Made by a program: the position numbers and the translations under genes. A stretch of DNA of 47,227 nucleotides from a virus: positions 1 to 47,227 of the IMG/VR virus record IMGVR_UViG_3300033388_005506; one strand, given 5' to 3'. The notes beneath the pieces are model-generated. The model had not been told where the DNA came from and searched no databases. It was given only the letters and a program-made list of their open reading frames with translations. Shown here piece by piece: positions 14,868 through 43,323 of this stretch. Position 1 is the first letter of the stretch. Each line of letters starts with the position of its first letter.

Positions 14868-17627
14868 ATGGCAGAAGAACCTAAAAAGTTAAGTGAGATT
14901 ACAGAAGAAGCAACAATACTTGTTGATGGTGATAAGTCTTATGAGGTTACAAATAATGATACTACACCAACAAGTAAATTTACCTTATGGTCTACGAAGA
15001 AAGCAGTTCTTAAAACTTACTTTGATACACTTTACAATAAGTATGTTCTTGAAAATCATGCAAGTAAGCATACTAATGGTACTGACGATATCCAGAGTGC
15101 TACGAATGCTCAAAAAGGTCTTGCTACAGCAGCTCAAATCACAGCTATTGAAGCCAACACCAGTGCGAGTCATGCTGAAAGTCACTCGATTGTGTCACAT
15201 AATGATACAACAGCGACAGGAGCAGAGCTTGATACACTAACAGGTGGCGGTGATACTACTTTGCATGATCATGATGGGATAAGTGAAAACACAGCAGCAC
15301 GACATACTCAAGGGACTGATACAGACCTAGGTACTGTTGGAACAAAAGCAACGCCTGTTGATGCTGATAAAGTACTCCAGCGAGATAGTGAAAGCCTTGA
15401 TGTATTAGTTACAAGCACTTGGACTCAGATTAAAGCTTTTCTTAAAACATATTTCGATACAATTTATAATAATTATAGTCATCCAAACCACTCAGGAGAT
15501 GTAACTTCAACTGGTGATGGGGCAACTGTTATTGGGGCTGATAAAGTTAAAGATACAATGATTGATTGGGGAACCGATGCAGGACAGGTAAGTTCAGATG
15601 ATATCCCAGATCATAATGAGCATACAATTAAAGCTACCTTTGATCATATTATTAATAGTGGTAAGGTGGAAGTATCTACAATTACATTAACTGGTGGTCT
15701 TGGAATAAGTTGGATTGAGCATAAAATATTTGATTCTGTTACTGAGACATTTATAACGATAGCCGCCGGAAGTGGGAACCTCACAGATAATATGCATAAT
15801 TATCTCAAGTGGGTATCTGGAACAACTGCTACTATATCAACGTCAAGCAGTTCTGATAATGAGATTCTCTTAGCATCGTTTAGCGTTTATGATGGAGTTA
15901 TTAATGGATATAGAGAAACTTCTTTAATGAATGAAACTATATTTGATACCCGTAGAGCTATAAGGGCATTTTTCCCAACTTATGTTATTTCAGGAATGAG
16001 TGTTTATGAAGATACTGATGTTACCAATGCTTTTGATGTGACGATGGATGCTAGTGTTTTTTGGAAAGATGGGATTGAAAGGGAAACTTCGGCTGAAATT
16101 AAATCACGAAATACAGCAATGGTTCGACACTTCCACACAGGTGGAGTGTGGGACTCAGATACAAATGCTGAAGTTGACGTGGTAAATTATGATGATGGTA
16201 CAGGTCTTGTTGCTATTCCATCGAATAAATATACTAAATCACTTTTCATCCTTATGGGCACCAAGATCGGTTGGATTTATCCAAGAGAATATTTTACAGT
16301 TGAAGCTGATGCGATTGCTGCCGCACTTCCTCCTGTACCTCCTGGACTTGAGCATGCACCAAAATCAACAGCAGTTGTTCTTAAACAAGGGGATGCTGCT
16401 TTCCCGACAAATGGTGATAGATGGCAGGATGTGCGACCAGGAATAAGTGAGGCGTCTTTTGTTGGAATTACAAACCATGCTGCAATGAGTAATCTTGGTT
16501 TTGCAGAATCAGGACATACGGGGTTTGTTGGAGATTCTGACTTCACTCAAGATTCTGGCATTTTAGTAGGCACAGGAGCAGGTACTTTCCAGGAAGAAAC
16601 CGGTGCTACACTTAGAACAAGTATAGACGTTGACCAGGCTGGGACAGATAACAGTACAGATGTGACCCTTAATGCTTCGGCTATAACAGGTGGGATGAGT
16701 CTTAGCGCTCAAGAAATTTCAAACCAAGCTGCCACGAATGCACAGAATGGATATATGACATCCACTTTGGTTGGTAATATTGAAACTAATAATAATAAAG
16801 CAGATTCTGGAATTAATGCAGACATCACCAGCATGACTGGGCTGGACAATTACGGAATACCTGGCGTGAAGATAGATAATTCAGTTGTATCAAAAACAAC
16901 AACGGCAACCTTGACCGTGGCAGAGGCGGGGGTAGTATTAGTTTCCGCTTCTGCTGATTATACAATAACCTTGCCAACCGCAGTAGGCAATGCAGGGCTT
17001 ACTTATCACTTCATTAAAACTGACGCTAATTATAACCTAATCACGCTTGATGGTGACGGGACAGAGACATTTAATTATGAGAACGCTGATGGAGTGCCAA
17101 AAGAAACTTACGCAAGACTGAATACTTATTGTGCAGAAGTAACAGTAGTTTCAGATGGCTCTAACTGGCAATGTATAAATGAGAAGCTGGGGCAAGTGCC
17201 AAAGTGTTTTGTATATTTAAGTGCTGATCAGATTAATATAGTAGATAATACATGGACATTGATAGAATTTAACTCAAAAATTGATGATATAGGCTCTAAT
17301 TTCAATACTACAACTCATAAATTTATATGCCCTGTTGCTGGACAATATATTGTTGCTCTACACATAGTTTGGACGGGTACAAATGTAGTAGCAGACAAGA
17401 AATATGTAGGAACTATTAGGACAGATGCTACCGCATGGGGAGAGCATACAGTTCAATCTGCAATTGCAGATTATGTTGTCAACACATATACCAAAATAAG
17501 AACTTGTGCTAAAGATAGCGAATTAACAACATATTGTTATCATAAGGCAGGTGTAGATACCATTTATATTAGAGGGACAAGTGAAAAATTCTCTTCTATG
17601 GACATAAGATTAATCTCAAAAGATTAA
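14868..17627 (+). CDS. Tail fibre / receptor-binding protein with C1q-like C-terminus
   Basis: 919 residues. Repeated HxxH/HTNGTD and FLKTYFDTLYN segments in residues 1-200 are typical of phage fibre shafts. The middle is beta-rich. The last ~125 residues (starting FVYLSADQINIVDNTWTLIE, with FICPVAGQYIVALHI and ending MDIRLISKD) match the C1q/TNF-like jelly-roll head domain that phages use for trimerised receptor binding. The unusual position between the small terminase and lysis genes is noteworthy. Expression may be tuned by the triplicated SD. The fibre call is confident; the receptor is unknown. Confidence 0.8.
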   Translation: MAEEPKKLSEITEEATILVDGDKSYEVTNNDTTPTSKFTLWSTKKAVLKTYFDTLYNKYVLENHASKHTNGTDDIQSATNAQKGLATAAQITAIEANTSASHAESHSIVSHNDTTATGAELDTLTGGGDTTLHDHDGISENTAARHTQGTDTDLGTVGTKATPVDADKVLQRDSESLDVLVTSTWTQIKAFLKTYFDTIYNNYSHPNHSGDVTSTGDGATVIGADKVKDTMIDWGTDAGQVSSDDIPDHNEHTIKATFDHIINSGKVEVSTITLTGGLGISWIEHKIFDSVTETFITIAAGSGNLTDNMHNYLKWVSGTTATISTSSSSDNEILLASFSVYDGVINGYRETSLMNETIFDTRRAIRAFFPTYVISGMSVYEDTDVTNAFDVTMDASVFWKDGIERETSAEIKSRNTAMVRHFHTGGVWDSDTNAEVDVVNYDDGTGLVAIPSNKYTKSLFILMGTKIGWIYPREYFTVEADAIAAALPPVPPGLEHAPKSTAVVLKQGDAAFPTNGDRWQDVRPGISEASFVGITNHAAMSNLGFAESGHTGFVGDSDFTQDSGILVGTGAGTFQEETGATLRTSIDVDQAGTDNSTDVTLNASAITGGMSLSAQEISNQAATNAQNGYMTSTLVGNIETNNNKADSGINADITSMTGLDNYGIPGVKIDNSVVSKTTTATLTVAEAGVVLVSASADYTITLPTAVGNAGLTYHFIKTDANYNLITLDGDGTETFNYENADGVPKETYARLNTYCAEVTVVSDGSNWQCINEKLGQVPKCFVYLSADQINIVDNTWTLIEFNSKIDDIGSNFNTTTHKFICPVAGQYIVALHIVWTGTNVVADKKYVGTIRTDATAWGEHTVQSAIADYVVNTYTKIRTCAKDSELTTYCYHKAGVDTIYIRGTSEKFSSMDIRLISKD

Positions 17628-20652: not shown

Positions 20653-22530
20653 ATGCCACCACTACTATATGGAAATACCGCAACAGAGGATATAGTACAA
20701 CTTACGAAGAAAGACTTCAATTATGATTATCCAAACAACTTGGATCTCAAGCCTGGAAGTGCTCTCCATGAGAAGATAAAGAATAAGATCTTAGAACGGG
20801 CAACAGAATCTGCAAGCATAATGTCAAGTCGATTTGAATCTTGGAATGAGCAAGATCAGTTCCTTACTGCATACAAACGGATTGACTCAGATGAGAAGAA
20901 AGTAAAAGATGTTGATGATAGAAAACCTGTTAGTATTGTTTTCCCATACTCCTATGCGATTCTTGAAACATTGTTGTCATATATGATGGGAGCATTTTTT
21001 CGTGAGCCTCTTTTTCGTTACGAGGGTTATAGTCCTGATGATGTTATGGGCAGCATCTTAATGGAGCAGGTTGTAAATCTTCATTGTAACAAGTTCAAAG
21101 TTATGCTTAACCTACATACAATGTTTCGAGATGCTTTTGTTTACGGAATCGGGGTTGTGGCACCAATTTGGAAAGTTCATTCCAGAGGAAACTTTGAAGG
21201 TAATGCTTTGATAAACATTGATCCTTACCGATACCTGCCTGATCCAAATGTAGCAGCAGATAAAATACAAGACGGTGAGTTTGTTGGCTGGGCAAGTGAT
21301 ACAAACTATATGGATCTTCTAACTGAGGAAGGTAATGACGAGGATTTGTTTAATGTACAATATTTGAAAGAATTAAAGTTTAAAGGAACAAGTATATATA
21401 GTACTGACAACTCAGGTAGGTATATCAAGACTGGATCAGGAAAGAGTACGAATAATACTTTTACTCCAATAACCGAGATAGCTATGTACATCAAGATCAT
21501 TCCACAAGATTGGGGACTTGGTTCCAGTGATAGACCAGAAAAATGGTTCTTCAGACTTGCCAGTGATGCAGTACTAATCACGGCTCGACCTGCTGAGTTT
21601 AATCATGACAAATTTCCAACTGCTGTAACTGCACCGGACTTTGATGGATACAGTAGCACACCCCTAAGTAGGCTTGAAGTACTTGGTGGTATGCAAGGAG
21701 TCTTGGATTGGATGCTTAATGCACATATTGCCAATGTTAGAAAGTCAGTAAACAATACACATATTTATGATCCATATTTAATCAACACCAATGATTTAAA
21801 AGCAGCTAAGTATGGTGGCCTCGTAAGGATGAGGCGTCCTGCTTGGGGACAGGGCAAGATCAAAGATGCTGTACATCAGCTTAATATTAATGATGTAACT
21901 CGGGGTCATGTAGCAGATTCGAGTTTCATTGTCCAGGGAATGGAAAAAATCGGTGGTGTTGATTCAATGAATATGGGTAGTTTACGCAGCTCTGGGCCAG
22001 AACGACTTACTAAGGCAGAATTCCAAGGTACTGCAAGTGGCGGCATTACAAGGCTTGGTCGGCTTGCAAAAGTAACTGGTCTCCAGGCTATGCAAGACAT
22101 TGGAGAATTCTTCGCAGATCATACACAACAAATGATGACAGATGATATGTATGTGAAGATTAATGGTAGCTGGACTGAAACACTACTTGAAGAATATAGT
22201 CACAGTATTAGTCGTGGTAGGATGAAAATAAGTCCAAGTCAGCTTGATATTAACTACGATGTGCTGGTACGAGATGGTAGTGTTCCGGGTGGTAATAGTT
22301 CTGAAGTATGGCTCAGGATGTTTGAAACAATAGCAGGAGTTCCTGAACTTAATCAACATTTAGACATTGTAAAGATATTCAAACATATTGCAAAAGAAGC
22401 TGGTGCTAAGAATGTAGATGATTTTGTTAGGCGTGGGGGAGACTTTCAAGGCCAGGCTATGTCGAATGAACAAGTATCGCAACAAACTCAAGCAGGAAAT
22501 ATTGTTCCAATGACTGGAGGTGTAAGATGA
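20653..22530 (+). CDS. Portal protein
   Basis: 625 residues. It follows the terminase by 10 bases with SD AAAGGAA. The segment RKPVSIVFPYSYAILETLLSY-MMGAFF, the DAFVYGIGV helix and the NIDPYRYLPDPNV segment are typical of podovirus portals, as is the size. The C-terminus (DFQGQAMSNEQVSQQTQAG) is polar. It forms the dodecameric ring for DNA passage and the start point for capsid assembly. The last bases overlap the next start (ATGA). Confidence 0.85.
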   Translation: MPPLLYGNTATEDIVQLTKKDFNYDYPNNLDLKPGSALHEKIKNKILERATESASIMSSRFESWNEQDQFLTAYKRIDSDEKKVKDVDDRKPVSIVFPYSYAILETLLSYMMGAFFREPLFRYEGYSPDDVMGSILMEQVVNLHCNKFKVMLNLHTMFRDAFVYGIGVVAPIWKVHSRGNFEGNALINIDPYRYLPDPNVAADKIQDGEFVGWASDTNYMDLLTEEGNDEDLFNVQYLKELKFKGTSIYSTDNSGRYIKTGSGKSTNNTFTPITEIAMYIKIIPQDWGLGSSDRPEKWFFRLASDAVLITARPAEFNHDKFPTAVTAPDFDGYSSTPLSRLEVLGGMQGVLDWMLNAHIANVRKSVNNTHIYDPYLINTNDLKAAKYGGLVRMRRPAWGQGKIKDAVHQLNINDVTRGHVADSSFIVQGMEKIGGVDSMNMGSLRSSGPERLTKAEFQGTASGGITRLGRLAKVTGLQAMQDIGEFFADHTQQMMTDDMYVKINGSWTETLLEEYSHSISRGRMKISPSQLDINYDVLVRDGSVPGGNSSEVWLRMFETIAGVPELNQHLDIVKIFKHIAKEAGAKNVDDFVRRGGDFQGQAMSNEQVSQQTQAGNIVPMTGGVR

Positions 22531-32328: not shown

Positions 32329-33171
32329 ATGGGTAGCAGTGGTGGTGGAGGTGGCGGTGGAGATAGTACAGCAAGGTATGCTCCATATATAGAAGCGAAA
32401 CATCAGACTTTTTTGAATACATCAGCAGCTGCTGGTACTGCTGCAAGGGCTGATAATCCATATAAAAATTATACTGATCTTGATTTCGATGATGCTTTTT
32501 ATGGTGTCGGGTATGTTATATCAAGCTTTCCAAGTTTGTATGATATGTTTGGAAAGTTTATGGCAGGGCTGGATATTGAAAGTCTCTGGAATCAAGTGCT
32601 TAATGATGTGCAACATAATTCGACAATTCGAGCAGCAACAAATGCACATAGAGATCTTTTAGATGATGATATTGAACAGAATGTTTTGCCTCGATTTGAA
32701 GAAGGGATGAGAGATATCAATGCTGTGATGTGTAGTTCCTTTGTTGTAGGGAAGGGAATAATAGAAAATGCAAGAGTTAAGAAACTTGCAGAATTTGATG
32801 CAGACTTGAGATATAAACTCATACCTGTTGCAGCTGAGGTTTTTAGTAAACATCTATCTTGGAATTCTGGAATGATTACAAGTTATATAGAAGTTATGAA
32901 ACTTGCAATTTTGACTAAGATTGATACAACTACACAGAATTATGACTATGCACTTAAGGATACAATGTGGCCTTTTACAGTTCTGGAGCAAGAAAGAGCT
33001 AATCTTGGTGCATTACAGGGAGCAGTTGCTGGTAGTGCTGGTGGTGAAGCTTCTAAAGGACAGAAAGTTCTTGGTGGTGCTCTTGGTGGAGCAAGTCTTG
33101 GTGCATCAGTTGGTGGAGCACCAGGTGCTGCTATTGGTGGAATTATTGGTGGTATTGCAGGATTATTATAA
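32329..33171 (+). CDS. Internal virion / ejection protein
   Basis: 280 residues. A Gly run at the start (GSSGGGGGGGDS), a long helical body and a C-terminal glycine-zipper (GALGGASLGASVGGAPGAAI-GGIIGGIAGLL), typical of proteins ejected into the host envelope that form or seal the transfer channel. SD GGAGG. First of three consecutive ejection genes. Confidence 0.7.
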   Translation: MGSSGGGGGGGDSTARYAPYIEAKHQTFLNTSAAAGTAARADNPYKNYTDLDFDDAFYGVGYVISSFPSLYDMFGKFMAGLDIESLWNQVLNDVQHNSTIRAATNAHRDLLDDDIEQNVLPRFEEGMRDINAVMCSSFVVGKGIIENARVKKLAEFDADLRYKLIPVAAEVFSKHLSWNSGMITSYIEVMKLAILTKIDTTTQNYDYALKDTMWPFTVLEQERANLGALQGAVAGSAGGEASKGQKVLGGALGGASLGASVGGAPGAAIGGIIGGIAGLL

Positions 33172-33192: not shown

Positions 33193-33690
33193 ATGGCTTT
33201 TTGGGATTTTTTAACAAGTACAAATATAAATCCGTCAGACTATGCTGGCCCAATGATGGGACAAGATGCAAATGTAGGAATTGGAAGTAAGATTGGAGAT
33301 TTCTTTACTGATCCGAATATAAGAGTTATGTTGGGAGAAATGGCTGGGCAGGTTAGTGGGTCAGGATCAATTGGAGACATTCTTGGTACAGCAGGAAAAA
33401 ATCTTACTCAAAGAGAGCAGTATCAAAAGGCAGCAACAAAGGGACAAGGTAGTATGATTGATGCACTGAGAAGAGGAGAAGGTCTCGGGCCAGAGTCTGA
33501 TAATCATACTTGGGATTCTGTTACTCAAGATGGTAAAGGAAATATTTCTGCAAAGATGAATTATAAAGCACCAGAATTTCGTATTCCTGGAGCACAAAAA
33601 CAACTTGAAGGGATTAAAAGTTTTGAAGCACCTTCTATTCCATCTACACAAAGTGGGAGGTCTGATATTGACTACTCCCCTTTCTTTTAA
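33193..33690 (+). CDS. Ejection-type protein, short form (zero frame)
   Basis: 165 residues with SD AAGGAGAAGG. MAFWDFLTSTNINPSDYAGP then IGSKIGDFFTDPNIRVMLGE is a common opening of ejection-protein genes. It ends at TAA (33688-33690), right after the slippery sequence. Most ribosomes would make this short form and a fraction would shift to the downstream frame, giving 397 residues. Confidence 0.7.
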   Translation: MAFWDFLTSTNINPSDYAGPMMGQDANVGIGSKIGDFFTDPNIRVMLGEMAGQVSGSGSIGDILGTAGKNLTQREQYQKAATKGQGSMIDALRRGEGLGPESDNHTWDSVTQDGKGNISAKMNYKAPEFRIPGAQKQLEGIKSFEAPSIPSTQSGRSDIDYSPFF

Positions 33691-33725
33691 GCCAGTCTAA
33701 GTATACAACAGATGACTTAGCTGGC
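33678..33725 (+). promoter_or_regulatory. Programmed -1 ribosomal frameshift signal
   Basis: The zero-frame codons are TCC CCT TTC TTT TAA. C CCT TTC (33678-33684) is a canonical X XXY YYZ heptamer on which both tRNAs can re-pair as CCC TTT. After a 6-base spacer (33685-33690) comes GCCAG-T-CTAAGT (33691-33702), a 12-base loop, and ACTTAG-CTGGC (33715-33725), an 11-bp stem with one bulged T. The -1 frame then stays open to 34385. Confidence 0.8.
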
Positions 33726-34385
33726 CTTGACCCAGAACAGATTAATAGTTTAATGCAAGAAAAACGAGCTCGAGAACAGATGACAATGGGTTTTGTCAGA
33801 AATATGATTAATCGTAGAGACATGTTGGAGAAACAAGGATATAATCGGAAGACTGCTGCTGAGCAAGTAAAAAGAGAAGCATTGGCAGCACTTCAGTTGA
33901 GAAAAGATAAAGAGGCACAGGAAAAAGTAAGACTTGGTGAAAGAGAAGAGGAGCATGATTGGGAACTTACTAAAGAACAACGAAAATATAAGCAAGCTTT
34001 TGATATCCTTGGAGAACAAGCAAGAATTAAACAAGAAGATGCAGCAAAAGTTAAGCCACTATCTTCAACAGAAAAACTTAATCTTACCAAATACACAAAT
34101 GAGTCTTTAGACTATATTACTAATCCAGAAATTGATTGGAACAGCAGAGTAAGTCGTGCAAACATAGAAAATAATAGACCTGGTGCTGGTGTTGTTTATG
34201 AGATGGTGAGTGAAGGAGAAGAACCTTGGTTAGGTAAGAATACAGAAGATGAAATAAATGTTCATCCAATCCCACCGGGAATGAAAATTAATGGTAGTCC
34301 TCCTACTGGAAATGAGATCATTCGTAGAGCAAAGATGGCAAATATGTCTATTGAAGAATTTCTTAATAAAATACAACAGAGGTAA
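33684..34385 (+). CDS. Ejection-type protein, -1 frame extension
   Basis: The -1 frame reads from the slip site as LLSQSKYTTDDLAGLDPEQI then NSLMQEKRAREQM. It continues as a Lys/Glu/Gln-rich coiled coil (EREEEHDWELTKEQRKYKQA) to the stop at 34385, with 233 residues added to residue 164 of the short form. The first ATG in this frame (33753) has no SD, so independent start is unlikely. The C-terminus ends MSIEEFLNKIQQR. Probably an internal virion protein. A gene broken by one missing T in the TTTT run is the alternative. Confidence 0.65.
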   Translation, partial: LLSQSKYTTDDLAGLDPEQINSLMQEKRAREQMTMGFVRNMINRRDMLEKQGYNRKTAAEQVKREALAALQLRKDKEAQEKVRLGEREEEHDWELTKEQRKYKQAFDILGEQARIKQEDAAKVKPLSSTEKLNLTKYTNESLDYITNPEIDWNSRVSRANIENNRPGAGVVYEMVSEGEEPWLGKNTEDEINVHPIPPGMKINGSPPTGNEIIRRAKMANMSIEEFLNKIQQR

Positions 34386-34387
34386 TT

Positions 34388-37300
34388 ATGACAAATCCAT
34401 TTGCAGGTATAACTTTTGATGGTGATCAAACAATAGAAAAAGCTGGTGATGTTAAAGATTTTATTAAGAAATGGGAAACATTCCAACCAATAGCTTATCA
34501 ACCTACAAAAAATGATATAATGACTGTTGGCTATGGTCATACTGGGACTGCCTATCCTGGAATGAAGATAGATGAAGCACAAGCAGATAAACTTCTTGTT
34601 ACTGATCTGCAAGCAGCAAATAAAGCTATTGATGATCTTGTAACTGTTGATGTTAATCCAGAGCAAAGAGAAGCATTGACAAGTTTAATTTTTAATGTAG
34701 GTCGTGGATCTTTTGCTAAATCTAAAGCATTAAAGGCTCTTAATGCAGGGAATATTGAGGAGTTTAAACGGCAAGCTTTTGATCCAGAACTTGGTTGGGT
34801 TAAACAAGGGAAGAAGACTTTACCTGGTTTGGTTAAAAGACGAGAGGAAGAAAGACAGATGTTTGACAGGATGCAGGATGAAGATCCTTTTGGTGGGATT
34901 ACATTGCATGGTTTGAGTTATGATGAAACTACTCGGCGTTCACCAAGTGAACAGCAAGTAGATCCTGATGACCCATATGGAACAGGCTTGGCTGCGGAAG
35001 CTGGTGGTCAATCGCCTTTAAAAAAAACTATAACTTCTAAGGACGTCTTGGAACAATGGAAAGATCAATGGAAAAAAGTTCCTGGGGGATTAGAAGGCTT
35101 GGCTCATCTTGCTTATGGAGCAGCAACCTTTGTTCCTTCAGGGATTCTTGGTCTTGGTACTATTGCTCTTGGTAAAGCTCAAGATTGGTCGGCAAGAGAA
35201 CTTGTTAAAAGTAAAGGTGATAAGATGTCACCTGAAGAAATTGCCAAACAGGAAAGTCTTTATATGACTCCAGAAGATATTGATAAAGCAGCAGATGCCT
35301 CAAGAGCTATATTTAGTCAATGGATACCTGAACCACAATCAGAATCTGCAAAAAAGATTATAGCAGGAACAAATGAAATAATTGAAAAAGCCTTGTTCTG
35401 GGCACCTTCAGTAGAAAAATATTTTGATGATAAAGGACAACCAAATCTTGGGAGTAGTATGAGATTTGTTTTGGAACTTGCTGCATTTAAAGCTGCTCAT
35501 GTTGGAGGTAAAAAAATAGCGAAAAAGGTTAAACAGATTAATAGAAAGTTTAAAGATGGTAAGACACCGGAAGATGTTAAGAGTGATATTGATGCACTTA
35601 AAAAATATCTTGATCCTAAAGACCCGGAATTGGTGAAGGAACAGAGAGCTTATTATAATGACAAAGCTGTAATGGAAAGGAATATGAAAGCAGCGAAAGA
35701 TGCAGAGATTACAAAAGAATGGGTAACACGACAGAGAGCTTTGCAGGCGAAATTGAGGAAAGGAATTCCAGCAGAGAAACCAAAGCCAGAGCCGTTGGTG
35801 TATCCTGAGAAACCACTCAGCACAGGTGATCCTGCACGTACAGCAATAGAACAACAAAGATTTAAAGAAGGTTTGATTAAGAAATTTAAACTGAAGAAGC
35901 ATGAAAGTATTGATAATATTTTTGCACCACTGATGAATAAGCGAGGATCGATTACAGTTCCAAATTTGAAGAAATTCACTGAGAAGGTTGATCCTACAAT
36001 CCGAGATCATATTCGTCGAATTGGTAAAGCAGCAGAGAAATCAGGATTGCCACTGGACTTGTTCTTAAAGAACCAAGGGATGACAGACAACCAAATTAAG
36101 GACTTTACAAAGATGCATGAGAGAGCAAAGGAAGAAAGACCTTTGGCTTCTGCATTGACAAAAGATGATGTTAGTCCTGCGAAAGATCCACTTGTCATGT
36201 CTGAAGGTGATACTAATGTTAATGTTAGTTCTTCAAAAAAGACTAAACCTTCCATTGAAGTTGGGCAGAAAACCTTGGATCAACTTAAAGCTGCACCAAA
36301 TGTAAGTACAGCAAGTTTAGCAAAGACCTTTACTCCAACATTACATAAGATTAGAAAGTTTGGTATTCCACTCTTAAAAGATCTTTGGCATAAGGCTAAT
36401 AAGATTGAAGTTGCAAGGCTGAAGGATTTAGACATATTAAAAAAGACCATATTAAATCTTGATAAAGAATATCCGGATATTAAACTCCGTCAAGAAGTTT
36501 ATTTAAAGATGATGTCACAAAACACATTAGGGAGGAAAGCAATAGAGAAGAGTGGTTACAAACCTATTGACAAACCGATTGCTTATGATGAAATGATCAA
36601 GGTATTGAATGAACAATTCGGTGATCTGGTACAAAGAATTAATGAAGCAAGAATTGCAAGAGGAGAGAAGCCGATTAGGGTTATGAAAGATTACTTGCCA
36701 ATGATTGCTCAGGAGAATTTCTATCATCAGTTGCGAACCTTATTTAAAGATGGTGAAGCACAGCAGGGGATGCCAAACTTAGTTCTTGATAGTATGCAAG
36801 ATATTAAACATCGTCATTCTTTTGCTACTGCTGATGCTACAAACTTACGTCATACAAAGAGAGGGAAACTTCGAGCAGGCATTCGATTAGAACCTGATCC
36901 TTTAAAGCTGCTTTCATCCTATGGTAGTACAGCACTTAGGCATGTACATTATAGTCCACTTAATAGTTTTGTCGAACAGCTGGTAAAAAGTCCTTTGGTA
37001 GATTTAAAGACAGGGAAGAAATGGAGAATGGAAGAACAGAACTATGAACTGGCTGAATTTTTAAGTCGGTGGAATAACAAGCTTGCCGGCAGAGCTAATG
37101 TTATATTGCCAGAAGCTTTGAGATTTATTGAACGTGGAATACAAAAACTTAGCCAGAATCTTACTATGGCTACACTTGGTTGGTCTGTAAGAACGATTCT
37201 GGTACAACCCACAGCACTTCTTCCAGTTATGACAGAATTTGGAACTGGTAATATGATGAAGGGGATGTTAGATACAATAAGGGATAAGAAAGGAACACCG

Positions 37301-38212
37301 ATAAAGAGATCAAATGTGCTGAAGATGCGAGTATCTGATGCATTTATAAATGATTTGGTTGATATTCAACTTGGTGGAAAATTAAAAAAGGCTTCGTCCT
37401 TTCCTCAGCAAAAGGCTTTAAGCTTTATGAAATTTGTCGATCTGGTTGCAGCTAAAGCAGCTTGGCGAACAGCTTATAAGGTAGCAAGAAAAACTATGGG
37501 CGAGCAAGAAGCATTTCGTTTTGCAGAAGAAGCAGTTGTGAGAACACAAGGTTCTGGATTTGCTGGAGATTTAAGTCCAATACAAATGAATACTATTGGT
37601 AAGGCTGTGACACTTTGGCAGACATTTACAATCAATCATATTAATTGGCTGGCAAAGGAAGTATTGAATATTAAGCATCCAGAAAGAAAGCCTGTGGAGT
37701 CTGCAAGACGAGTTATGACTTACATCATAGGTTCTGCTCTTATTAGTACGATTTTTGAAGATGGGATGGGGATTCAAAGTCCACAACCGGCACCACTTAA
37801 AGCGATTCAAAAAGGATTGGAGGATGGTGATTCTACAGCTGCGGCAGCACTTAAAGGATTACTTGAAATGACTGAGCTTATGCCTATTGGTAGTAGTGTT
37901 AAGTTTGCAAGTGATCCAGCTGGTGCTGTGGCTCAGTTTCTTGCTGATGCATCAGAGGGAATTAGTAAAGATTTACCTGCAGCACTTAATGGAGATAAGA
38001 AAGCCATGCAAAGACTGGGGTTTTTAATTGCAAAGGGTTATGGTGTACCGGGAAGTGGGCAAATAAGAAGATATGTTAAAGGAAGACAGAGAGGGGAAAG
38101 TCATCTCGGTGCAGCAGTTGGGAGATATGAGAAGAAAAAAGCTGGTGCAAAAAGTAAGATGCGGGGAAAGAAGTATAAGTCACGTGGTAATACAAAGTAT
38201 AAATCAAGATAA
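34388..38212 (+). CDS. Large ejection protein with N-terminal lysozyme (GH24-type) domain
   Basis: 1274 residues, starting 2 bases after the previous stop. Residues 20-165 form a phage lysozyme: FIKKWETFQPIAY carries the catalytic Glu, IMTVGYGHT the conserved core, and VNPEQREALTSLIFNVGRGS the typical helix. A long helical region follows (300-900), then a partly hydrophobic C-terminal third (LTMATLGWSVRTILVQPTAL, TLWQTFTINHINWLAKEVLN) and a basic tail (KKKAGAKSKMRGKKYKSR). It would digest peptidoglycan locally during DNA injection. Dispersed element copy 7 lies in the linker after the lysozyme domain. Lysozyme is confident, the ejection role is inferred. Confidence 0.8.
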   Translation: MTNPFAGITFDGDQTIEKAGDVKDFIKKWETFQPIAYQPTKNDIMTVGYGHTGTAYPGMKIDEAQADKLLVTDLQAANKAIDDLVTVDVNPEQREALTSLIFNVGRGSFAKSKALKALNAGNIEEFKRQAFDPELGWVKQGKKTLPGLVKRREEERQMFDRMQDEDPFGGITLHGLSYDETTRRSPSEQQVDPDDPYGTGLAAEAGGQSPLKKTITSKDVLEQWKDQWKKVPGGLEGLAHLAYGAATFVPSGILGLGTIALGKAQDWSARELVKSKGDKMSPEEIAKQESLYMTPEDIDKAADASRAIFSQWIPEPQSESAKKIIAGTNEIIEKALFWAPSVEKYFDDKGQPNLGSSMRFVLELAAFKAAHVGGKKIAKKVKQINRKFKDGKTPEDVKSDIDALKKYLDPKDPELVKEQRAYYNDKAVMERNMKAAKDAEITKEWVTRQRALQAKLRKGIPAEKPKPEPLVYPEKPLSTGDPARTAIEQQRFKEGLIKKFKLKKHESIDNIFAPLMNKRGSITVPNLKKFTEKVDPTIRDHIRRIGKAAEKSGLPLDLFLKNQGMTDNQIKDFTKMHERAKEERPLASALTKDDVSPAKDPLVMSEGDTNVNVSSSKKTKPSIEVGQKTLDQLKAAPNVSTASLAKTFTPTLHKIRKFGIPLLKDLWHKANKIEVARLKDLDILKKTILNLDKEYPDIKLRQEVYLKMMSQNTLGRKAIEKSGYKPIDKPIAYDEMIKVLNEQFGDLVQRINEARIARGEKPIRVMKDYLPMIAQENFYHQLRTLFKDGEAQQGMPNLVLDSMQDIKHRHSFATADATNLRHTKRGKLRAGIRLEPDPLKLLSSYGSTALRHVHYSPLNSFVEQLVKSPLVDLKTGKKWRMEEQNYELAEFLSRWNNKLAGRANVILPEALRFIERGIQKLSQNLTMATLGWSVRTILVQPTALLPVMTEFGTGNMMKGMLDTIRDKKGTPIKRSNVLKMRVSDAFINDLVDIQLGGKLKKASSFPQQKALSFMKFVDLVAAKAAWRTAYKVARKTMGEQEAFRFAEEAVVRTQGSGFAGDLSPIQMNTIGKAVTLWQTFTINHINWLAKEVLNIKHPERKPVESARRVMTYIIGSALISTIFEDGMGIQSPQPAPLKAIQKGLEDGDSTAAAALKGLLEMTELMPIGSSVKFASDPAGAVAQFLADASEGISKDLPAALNGDKKAMQRLGFLIAKGYGVPGSGQIRRYVKGRQRGESHLGAAVGRYEKKKAGAKSKMRGKKYKSRGNTKYKSR
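34928..34961 (-). repeat. Dispersed GTTC-N7-GAAC element, copy 7 (inside lysozyme-ejection gene)
   Basis: On the minus strand it reads CTACTTGCTGTTC, ACTTG, GTGAACGCCGAGTAG. It is translated on the plus strand as TTRRSPSEQQVDP at about residues 180-192, in the linker after the lysozyme domain. Confidence 0.8.
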
Positions 38213-40441: not shown

Positions 40442-42955
40442 CTATACTCCCAACTTTCTCAGTGCGTCATCAACATTAGGTTGTGTAAATTCCGAAATCT
40501 CAACAGTATTCCCTGCCCACTGAAATCCTAGCTTTGCATCAAGCCCGATACAGAAACTTCTTCCTTTGTATGTAAAGGTATAAGACATGTGATCTTTGAT
40601 AATGAGAAGAATGTCAAGAAGATTAGGAAGTTGTTCCAAGGACAGTTGAAAAACATCAGAGTCATGAACAGTTGTAAGGAAATCAATATCATATCCATCA
40701 CGACCAAGACGGGGATCTGCTGTCATTTTAATTGTACTACGATTTAATAACTCAGCGACAGTTGATTGAGGTTTATAGCTATATGCACTGCGAAACAGTG
40801 TGGAGTTTAGGAGACCCAGAAATCGCTTTGGCCTGCCGTATAAGTTATAGAGGACTCGAGTAGCCTTTACTTCATCTTCAATTAATTTATGCCAGCGATG
40901 GAGGCCTGGGAAACGAGTTGAATATGCCATAAGAAGTTGTTTGCATTCAGATTGAGACATGAAGACAGACTCTTTGGCAAGATTATCTGAAAAGGTTTGG
41001 GGCCCCATTCCATAGTTGCTGGAATGCACTACACGTTTTCCCATATCACGCTTTGTCATCTTGCCGGGAATCCTTTTCTCTTTTGCTATTTCCTCTATTG
41101 GAAGATTAAATATCTTTGAAGCATTAAAACTGTGGACATCAATCCCAGACTCGAAGGCTTCAATCATATGGGCATCTTGAGTGAGGAAGGCAACAACATG
41201 AGCTTCTGCCCTGGCAAGATCTACTTCACAAAGAAGTTTTCCTTTTTCAGGGATGAGGAATTTCTTATAAATATACGGTTGATTTTGTAAGTTTGCACCG
41301 GTACCTAAAAATGTTTTTTCTGTAGCAATTCTGCCAGATACAGTGCCGGAAATCTTATGAGAGCAACGAAGCTTGTTATCTGAGTCTACATTGATGTTGA
41401 AGTAGGTACTGAGAAGTTTGTAATAAGTTCGTATTTTGATTATTATTTTAGCTTCGATTCTTCCCTTAGTTTTTTTCCTTGCAATTCGGCTTAGTGCTAC
41501 GGCATCACAGGAAGGCTTCCCTGTTTTACGATTCACATATGGTTTGATCATAAGAGTACCATAGAAGTAAGCTATCATTTGTTTGGAACTGTTTATATTA
41601 AGCTCTTGTTTGGTGATCTTGTTAAGTCCGTGAGTCATAGCGAGGATTTTTCGTTGCAACACTTTACGCATTTTTTGAATCCCAGCCTGATCTGTGAGTA
41701 TGCCATTCCACTCCATTTCCATCAACGGCTTATGGAGATCCATAGTATAAATCATGGCATCAGTTGCTTCGAAATCTTCTAATTCTTTTTGAAGCTTGGC
41801 CATGATTGGAAAAAGATAAGCAGAGTCTTTAGCATTATATTTCCAATAACTTTGCCAATCCTTTATTGCAGCAAGATGACTTTGTTTGCCTTCATCTTTA
41901 TAGTAAGGGAAATATGTATATGTGGAAGTAAGAAAGCCTAAGCTCTTTGGCAGGTCTGTATATACTATATGTTGAGCTAACATTGTATCAAAATAAAAAT
42001 TATCAGATATGATATTCATTGTTCGGAGAATGAACATGATGTCAAACATACCGTTCTGGCAGATTATTCTAATAGCTGGATCAATTAATATCTCAGCCAA
42101 GCCTTCCCAAATTTGGATTTCTTCTGCAACAGTCCAATAATTACCCTTATTATTCATCAAAGGTATTGACATAGATTCAAGAGATCCATCCTTGTGTTGT
42201 ATGGCAAGAGAAAAACAAGTTATGTACTGAGGTGTAGCTTCAATGTCGAAACCAACCTTGGTGTGTTGTTTAACAAACTCGTAGAATTGCATAACTTTGT
42301 TGAAGCTTGGTTCAGTATGGATAACTACCTTGGTATCGAGAAGGCTTGGATTGGAATCAAGAAGCATGAACTTTTGCATATCAGCTATCATGATGTAAAA
42401 ATTAGTCGGTTGATTCCGAGCAAGTGTGGATGCTGGGTGATATGTTAGAGCAATAAACTTTCCCTTTAACTTCTCAGCAAGGTGAGGAAAGTTCTCTGCT
42501 TTGTAAATACTGCCCCGATAATTAGAAATTTTATTATACTTCGGCTCATCGATGAGCATTCTCATAGCGGTTGCCCCAAGGCAAATTATGAGCTTTCCTT
42601 CAAAGTGTGATAATTCCTCAATCAGGCGGGCTTGTAACTCTCCCCATTCTGGACAGCGATATCCTTTCTCTGTCCAAAGTTTGTTAGTATTATTATTCGG
42701 TAATTGTGCCTTGCAGCAATTGGTCAAGTATAGTTTGTATCTCGGTAGATTTACTGCTGCACAAATACGATTTAGTTGACTGCCAGCTGGGCCGACAAAT
42801 GGTTCTTGTTCCATCACTTCTATGTTGCTGGGTGCTTCTCCGATGAAAGCAAACTGGGCGGTGGTTATATTATCAGTTGGCGGACACTGAGTTTTGAGTG
42901 GATCAAAGTCTTTGGACTTCACTTTGTCTGGTATAAGTTTAGGTATTAGTGACAT
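40442..42955 (-). CDS. polA: Family A DNA polymerase with N-terminal uracil-glycosylase-like domain
   Basis: 837 residues from the ATG at 42955 (SD AAGGAG). Residues 35-195 resemble family 4/UdgX uracil-DNA glycosylases: FIGEAPSNIEVMEQEPFVGP-AGSQLNRI, LTNCCKA and YHPASTLARN. Next a DEDDy exonuclease: VGFDIEAT (about 236), QNGMFD, KYNAKDSAYLF. Then PolA motif A CEVDLARAEAHVVAFLTQD (about 578), motif B KRVVHSSNYGMGPQTF (about 643) with His at the position of E. coli Phe762, and motif C TTVHDSD (about 761). This is the phage replicative polymerase. Whether the glycosylase domain is active is not clear (the usual Asp of motif A is Val). Its start overlaps the YopX stop by one base. Confidence 0.9.
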   Translation of the reverse strand: MSLIPKLIPDKVKSKDFDPLKTQCPPTDNITTAQFAFIGEAPSNIEVMEQEPFVGPAGSQLNRICAAVNLPRYKLYLTNCCKAQLPNNNTNKLWTEKGYRCPEWGELQARLIEELSHFEGKLIICLGATAMRMLIDEPKYNKISNYRGSIYKAENFPHLAEKLKGKFIALTYHPASTLARNQPTNFYIMIADMQKFMLLDSNPSLLDTKVVIHTEPSFNKVMQFYEFVKQHTKVGFDIEATPQYITCFSLAIQHKDGSLESMSIPLMNNKGNYWTVAEEIQIWEGLAEILIDPAIRIICQNGMFDIMFILRTMNIISDNFYFDTMLAQHIVYTDLPKSLGFLTSTYTYFPYYKDEGKQSHLAAIKDWQSYWKYNAKDSAYLFPIMAKLQKELEDFEATDAMIYTMDLHKPLMEMEWNGILTDQAGIQKMRKVLQRKILAMTHGLNKITKQELNINSSKQMIAYFYGTLMIKPYVNRKTGKPSCDAVALSRIARKKTKGRIEAKIIIKIRTYYKLLSTYFNINVDSDNKLRCSHKISGTVSGRIATEKTFLGTGANLQNQPYIYKKFLIPEKGKLLCEVDLARAEAHVVAFLTQDAHMIEAFESGIDVHSFNASKIFNLPIEEIAKEKRIPGKMTKRDMGKRVVHSSNYGMGPQTFSDNLAKESVFMSQSECKQLLMAYSTRFPGLHRWHKLIEDEVKATRVLYNLYGRPKRFLGLLNSTLFRSAYSYKPQSTVAELLNRSTIKMTADPRLGRDGYDIDFLTTVHDSDVFQLSLEQLPNLLDILLIIKDHMSYTFTYKGRSFCIGLDAKLGFQWAGNTVEISEFTQPNVDDALRKLGV

Positions 42956-43323
42956 CAAGTTTTCTCCTTCAATAATTCTGGATTTTCATGGATGTTGCCA
43001 ATAATTTCAAGTTCATCCCAAGCAAAATTACAGTAGACATCCAAAGTAAATCTATATTTTTCCCAAATAATTGTCGCTATTTGTTCAGGATAATGAAATG
43101 AAATTGTTGGATATGGTGGAACTTTAACAATATCATCTTCATAAATCTCTTTACCATTTTTATCTTTTATTCCGGTGAATTGTTCTATAATAACTTCATC
43201 GTATTCACTTCTAAAGGTATTTCCATCTGGATGCTGCAAGCTAATTAATTCACGTATATGATAAGCTTCATAAAATGATATGTATTTTTCACCATCCCAA
43301 ACTCTGAATTTAATTTCTCTCAT
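42955..43323 (-). CDS. YopX-family protein
   Basis: 122 residues from the ATG at 43323 (another ATG two codons upstream). MREIKFRVWDGEKYISFYEA, QFTGIKDKNGKEIYEDDIVK and the C-terminal LEIIGNIHENPELL are the signature blocks of YopX proteins, which are found in many phages of Gram-positive and Gram-negative hosts; function unknown. Coupled to its neighbours. Confidence 0.85.
   Translation of the reverse strand: MREIKFRVWDGEKYISFYEAYHIRELISLQHPDGNTFRSEYDEVIIEQFTGIKDKNGKEIYEDDIVKVPPYPTISFHYPEQIATIIWEKYRFTLDVYCNFAWDELEIIGNIHENPELLKEKT

Follow-up and report, generated by a model that had tools for sequence, protein, structure and literature searches.

The window, i.e. the whole 47,227-bp stretch of viral DNA analysed here, contains two overlapping reading frames, gene A and, in the -1 frame relative to it, ORF B, which meet at a short junction (Table 1). 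Gene A ends with the codons TAC TCC CCT TTC TTT TAA. The heptamer C CCT TTC encodes Pro-Phe in the zero frame and would re-pair as CCC TTT after a shift of one base; a single codon, TTT, separates it from the zero-frame stop at 33688-33690. The stem that follows consists of 5 + 6 = 11 bp interrupted by one bulged T. On both sides of the heptamer the -1 frame is open, and the overlap within which a slip could join the frames is only 19 nt. No ATG, GTG or TTG precedes the conserved DLAGLDPEQI motif in the -1 frame of the window; the first ATG, at 33753, is downstream of this motif and has no SD.

Table 1. Features of the gene A/B locus, numbered from the first nucleotide of the window
Feature	Position	Strand	Remark
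P0009, upstream gene, 280 aa, all-helical, Gly-rich C-terminus; family marker (PRFEEGMRDINAV)	32329..33171	+	Bait for the heptamer-unbiased search for relatives
ORF A, putative short form, 165 aa, ending DYSPFF and stop	33193..33690	+	N-terminal region of single-ORF relatives is homologous
GGGAGG, SD-like element, 17 nt upstream of the heptamer	33655..33660	+	Possible extra stimulator; support weak
Slippery heptamer C CCT TTC	33678..33684	+	Junction also carries C CCT TTN in 19 further distinct split loci and in 10 single-ORF ones
Spacer TTTTAA, 6 nt, containing the zero-frame TAA	33685..33690	+	Spacer of ~6 nt recurs in relatives
Putative stimulatory stem, 5' arm GCCAG T CTAAGT	33691..33702	+	Best partner is its own downstream region, out of 20 loci
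Loop ATACAACAGATG, 12 nt	33703..33714	+	Stem-loop analysis
Stem, 3' arm ACTTAGCTGGC	33715..33725	+	Overlies codons of the conserved D-L-A-G-L motif
-1 frame, ORF B; would add 233 residues after a slip to give a 397-aa long form	33672..34385	+	Aligns with the C-half of single-ORF relatives
Downstream gene, 1274 aa, N-terminal lysozyme domain; likely ejected lysozyme protein	34388..38212	+	Domain match

A sequence-only reading of this DNA had proposed a programmed -1 frameshift signal here. On direct reading of the window its heptamer, TAA, 6-nt spacer, 11-bp one-bulge stem and 12-nt loop were base-exact, and the lengths that it gave for the added part (233 residues) and the joined protein (397 residues) were confirmed, as was the lack of an SD before the first ATG of the -1 frame. 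Zero-frame heptamers of the form X XXY YYZ (Y = A/T) occur 38 times in the window's 10,906 codons, and a downstream stem as stable as this one is found at 1.8% of random in-gene positions. When the B frame was shuffled synonymously, the stem had a z-score of -3.2. Taken by itself the window locus is suggestive of a signal, not proof of one, and the strongest evidence comes from its relatives. The GGGAGG element is the best anti-SD match in gene A, with 0/142 positions as good. As a general feature an SD-like stimulator was not supported, being present in only about half of the loci.

Genomic setting of gene A/B

The contig encodes an SU10-type portal and adaptor upstream of gene A/B, and its terminase is 43% identical to that of Desulfofustis phage LS06-2018-MD01. 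Three other regions of the window were noted in passing. The portal ORF contains T TTA AAA (codon 381) followed by a -20 kcal/mol double hairpin (21795-21870), where a -1 slip would reach a stop after 4 codons. A single ORF at 40442-42958 (-) combines uracil-DNA glycosylase, 3'-5' exonuclease and family A DNA polymerase domains, and a 919-aa ORF at 14868-17627 has a sub-threshold C1q-like match near its C-terminus.

Gene A/B sits between the P0009-family gene and the gene for the lysozyme-bearing 1274-aa protein. In relatives, the giant neighbour has matches to SLT, 'tail injection transglycosylase' or 'internal virion protein with endolysin domain', and it also carries polyvalent-protein domains. 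Neither A, B nor the single-ORF homologues gave a PHROG match, tail-assembly chaperone families included, and the position of the gene differs from the chaperone slot between the major tail protein and the tape-measure gene. It adjoins a giant protein with a peptidoglycan hydrolase domain, as expected of podovirus ejection proteins. Fold searches produced no significant match; the models were helical. Because of its position and its lysozyme- or transglycosylase-bearing neighbour, gene A/B is most likely part of a short-tailed phage's DNA-ejection module.

Relatives with a split gene

With A, B or the 1274-aa protein as a single query sequence, no relatives were found in viral contigs, and tblastn of A or B gave none in named phages. 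Matches to tail proteins were abandoned as a route to relatives, having led to unrelated siphophages and other phages. The family was opened by synteny with Desulfofustis phage OP947158, which supplied a two-row alignment of the neighbouring gene; profile searches with this gene, using the extended alignment, then yielded about 100 loci unselected for the heptamer. These loci form an undescribed family sharing the same gene module. No close relative of the window was found, the nearest (L005) being at 70% in the neighbouring gene. A DNA-pattern scan added heptamer-selected loci of like layout, which were kept apart in the statistics of CCCTTT enrichment.

A split gene, with B in the -1 frame and carrying the conserved C-half, was found at 22 distinct loci, the window included. 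The heptamer is C CCT TTN (N being C, T or A) in 20 of these and A AAT TTT in the other two; in the heptamer-unbiased set of 16 split loci the zero-frame counts are 14 and 2, respectively. Within this unbiased set, the 280 codons of the overlaps contain 14 instances of CCCTTT and the 6,624 codons elsewhere contain 2, although the loci are related, making the Fisher p-values for this enrichment approximate and only indicative. The residue preceding the proline varies (S, N, V, R, H, A, P and others), and its codon always ends in C in the CCCTTTN loci. Therefore, it is the nucleotides that are kept and not the amino acid.

In most split loci the stem starts ~6 nt past the heptamer, and its 3' arm usually overlaps the codons for the D-L-x-G-L motif or lies close to them; the stems are weak or distant in L086, L112, L173 and L184. 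The 5' arms vary between loci yet pair best with their own downstream region (permutation p<5e-5). When arms were swapped between loci, the summed pairing energy was -318.8 for the true combinations compared to -219.8 +/- 12.1 for the permuted ones, with 0/20,000 permutations as low. Restricting the comparison to 15 non-redundant loci gave -242.7 compared to -163.5 +/- 10.6 (0/50,000 permutations as low). Against synonymous shuffles, the split-locus stems had a mean z of -1.73 (n=22), and the controls -0.25. Comparing homologues for the heptamer and the paired bases was a check that the sequence-only reading had put forward.

One further locus (L026:11151-11230) has the same junction hairpin (TAGCCCTGCT/AGCAGGGCTA) with B in the +1/-2 frame and no heptamer; this may reflect a -2 slip, another mechanism or an error.

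An HMM built from only the 22 joined sequences matched single-ORF homologues across the junction (L127, 2e-43; L064, 7e-35; L005, 7e-33). The junction aligns without a break between the joined proteins and these natural full-length homologues. In a structural model of L005 (pLDDT 64; only the outline is usable), the junction falls in a predicted disordered linker that connects a helical N-domain to a long helical C-domain. In L020:10776-11978 and L021:11217-12571 this N-domain is apparently duplicated as a separate short gene, and many relatives (L127, L130, L133, L135, L139, L174, L177 and others) have a tandem pair of P0009-family genes.

Relatives with a single gene and the direction of the shift

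We initially took the single-ORF relatives, L005 among them, to be signal-free; this was overturned by the finding of in-frame CCCTTTY, A AAC CCT or slip-prone tetramers with hairpins at the junction. Ten single-ORF relatives have an in-frame C CCT TTY at the same place. A -1 slip would end translation early in all ten, and two codons later in seven of them. Most of the ten have a downstream hairpin; L166 lacks one at the expected place and is doubtful. The conservation of CCT TTY in single-ORF relatives may be partly at the protein level (Asn-Pro-Phe). A second type of site, A AAC CCT, mostly with a hairpin, is found in L014, L015, L018, L024, L043, L044 and L145, and L141 has T TTT TTC. A slip-prone tetramer (single-tRNA slip site), again mostly with a hairpin, is present in L005, L064, L016, L017, L034 and L062. 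No signal was seen at the junction in L124, L126 and L188.

Across 28 single-ORF genes the hairpin had a mean z of -2.33 against synonymous shuffles, compared to -0.10 for control zones. Stops in the -1 frame were mildly enriched in the single-ORF relatives (19, where 13.2 were expected). In the CCCTTTY single-ORF group a reversed polarity, i.e. a zero frame that gives the long product and a slip that would give the short one, is well supported by these observations. Reversed polarity is less well supported in the tetramer group, because the -1 stop is only mildly enriched.

The sequence-only reading had counted homologues with one uninterrupted frame and neither heptamer nor stem as evidence against a signal. 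The two nearest relatives, L005 and L064, are indeed single-ORF and have no CCCTTT, but both retain the hairpin, a T_TTT slip tetramer and a -1 stop. What that reading overlooked is the wider pattern, in which the frame of the long product flips among relatives. When the classes are mapped onto a tree built from the neighbouring gene, they are spread over it and change 18 times, and both deep clades contain shift-to-long loci; the tree is a quick one and the class label coarser, A AAC CCT and tetramer loci being scored as 'no site'. In our reading of this scatter, the polarity has switched repeatedly while the site itself was conserved.

Interpretation and comparison with known systems

The site, the stem, the frames, their conservation, the covariation of the arms and the homology of the joined protein are all properties of the DNA itself. 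That ribosomes do slip here, and how often, that both forms are present in virions and that the protein has a role in ejection are inferences. Ribosomes on gene A would decode CCT-TTC at 33679-33684 while the stem-loop, 6 nt further on, holds them back. A fraction would slip back one base onto CCC TTT, bypass the TAA and read 233 more codons, and the remainder would terminate at the TAA. One mRNA would in this way give a 165-aa short form (N-terminal domain plus linker) and a 397-aa long form in a set ratio, the long form adding the long helical C-terminal domain. In the relatives with reversed polarity the zero frame is open throughout, and the slip would lead to an early stop, as in dnaX. 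Selection would keep the pair of products and not the frame assignment.

We consider it very probable that the window carries a programmed -1 ribosomal frameshift signal giving a short and a long form, in a gene most likely of the ejection module. The 21 further distinct loci with the same architecture, the arm-swap covariation, the conservation of the stem beyond the protein code and the homology of the joined protein all argue for such a signal, as first proposed from the window, and indicate that it is neither a chance match nor a sequencing error. We think it reasonably probable, with less assurance, that almost all lineages of a widespread family have conserved a -1 recoding site where the N-domain meets the coiled-coil C-domain, that the polarity of this site switches repeatedly with a few sites replaced by two genes, and that selection keeps a fixed short/long ratio of an injected protein.

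The hairpin could serve another role (mRNA stability, processing, or pausing for folding), with any slip a side effect, and its conservation where only a tetramer slip site is seen would fit such a role. We regard this as very improbable given the near-constant spacer of ~6 nt from a slip-prone codon pair, and the frames of the split loci make sense only with a slip. A and B could also be two separate genes, in which case B would have its own start or depend on reinitiation and the heptamer would be incidental. About seven relatives do have two ordinary genes with an SD and ATG at the boundary (as in L028, L029, L030, L042, L149 and L060), and L008 has a TTG with AAGG upstream. This arrangement has an even slighter chance of applying to the window, where the -1 frame has no start codon before the conserved motif and no SD at its first ATG; in loci without a proper B start, moreover, the heptamer is confined to the brief overlap. 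An error of sequencing or assembly, or a decayed gene, in which a base lost from the T run at 33685-33688 splits an ordinary 398-aa gene, is the least credible explanation: one added T would join the frames and the nearest relatives are single-ORF, but 21 further loci from separate metagenomes share the split and the kind of heptamer, in most of them a stem follows at the same distance, and the stem is conserved beyond the amino-acid code. Transcriptional slippage was set aside because the runs (CCCC, TTT, TTTT) are short.

The programmed -1 frameshift proposed here would add a gene class, that of the DNA-ejection module of short-tailed phages, to the few phage genes known for such recoding, and suggests that a protein of this kind is needed in a set ratio of short to long forms. 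Reversals of polarity within one family tell apart two views, 'the ratio is selected' and 'the long form needs recoding', between which single cases usually do not decide. For annotation of these phages, the rule would be that a split or a single gene stands for two overlapping products.

In E. coli the motifs that slip efficiently include C_CC.U_UU.Y, and tetramers of the C_CC.U/C type are active there as well (PMC4066793). Known cases of frameshifting in phages are tail chaperones and capsid genes, including those of kuraviruses (PMC9965538, PMC5009743). We found no published frameshifting in an ejection protein, which is weak evidence of novelty since subscription literature was mostly outside the search.

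The lambda-type G/GT system of tail-assembly chaperones (Xu, Hendrix and Duda 2004, cited in PMC9965538) is similar: ribosomes slip by -1 at a heptamer close to where a structural-module gene ends, the short and long forms are made in a set ratio, and the arrangement is conserved across distant phages. Here the gene family is a different one, placed between a Gly-rich helical protein and a lysozyme-bearing giant and not upstream of the tape-measure gene, the heptamer is C CCT TTN, and the polarity flips among relatives. As in orfA/orfB of the IS3 family and IS911, a -1 slip with a stem-loop, and sometimes an SD-like element, decides between an N-domain alone and a fused N+C product; that product is a transposase there and a likely virion protein here, with no homology seen. 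The single-ORF relatives resemble dnaX (tau/gamma), in which the zero frame gives the long form and a -1 slip, with a stem-loop stimulator, gives the short form through an early stop, whereas the gene here is a phage structural-module gene whose family also holds the opposite polarity. Gene 10 of T7/T3 and the major capsid gene of kuraviruses (phiEco32/SU10-like) likewise belong to short-tailed phages and use -1 frameshifting to make a virion protein in two versions (PMC9965538, PMC5009743), virion presence being probable for the protein described here. Those are capsid genes with a GGGAAAG or G_GU-type site, and their slip adds a C-terminal extension. In the window, by contrast, the gene appears to be one of the ejection module, and it is the conserved full-length product itself that would need the slip.
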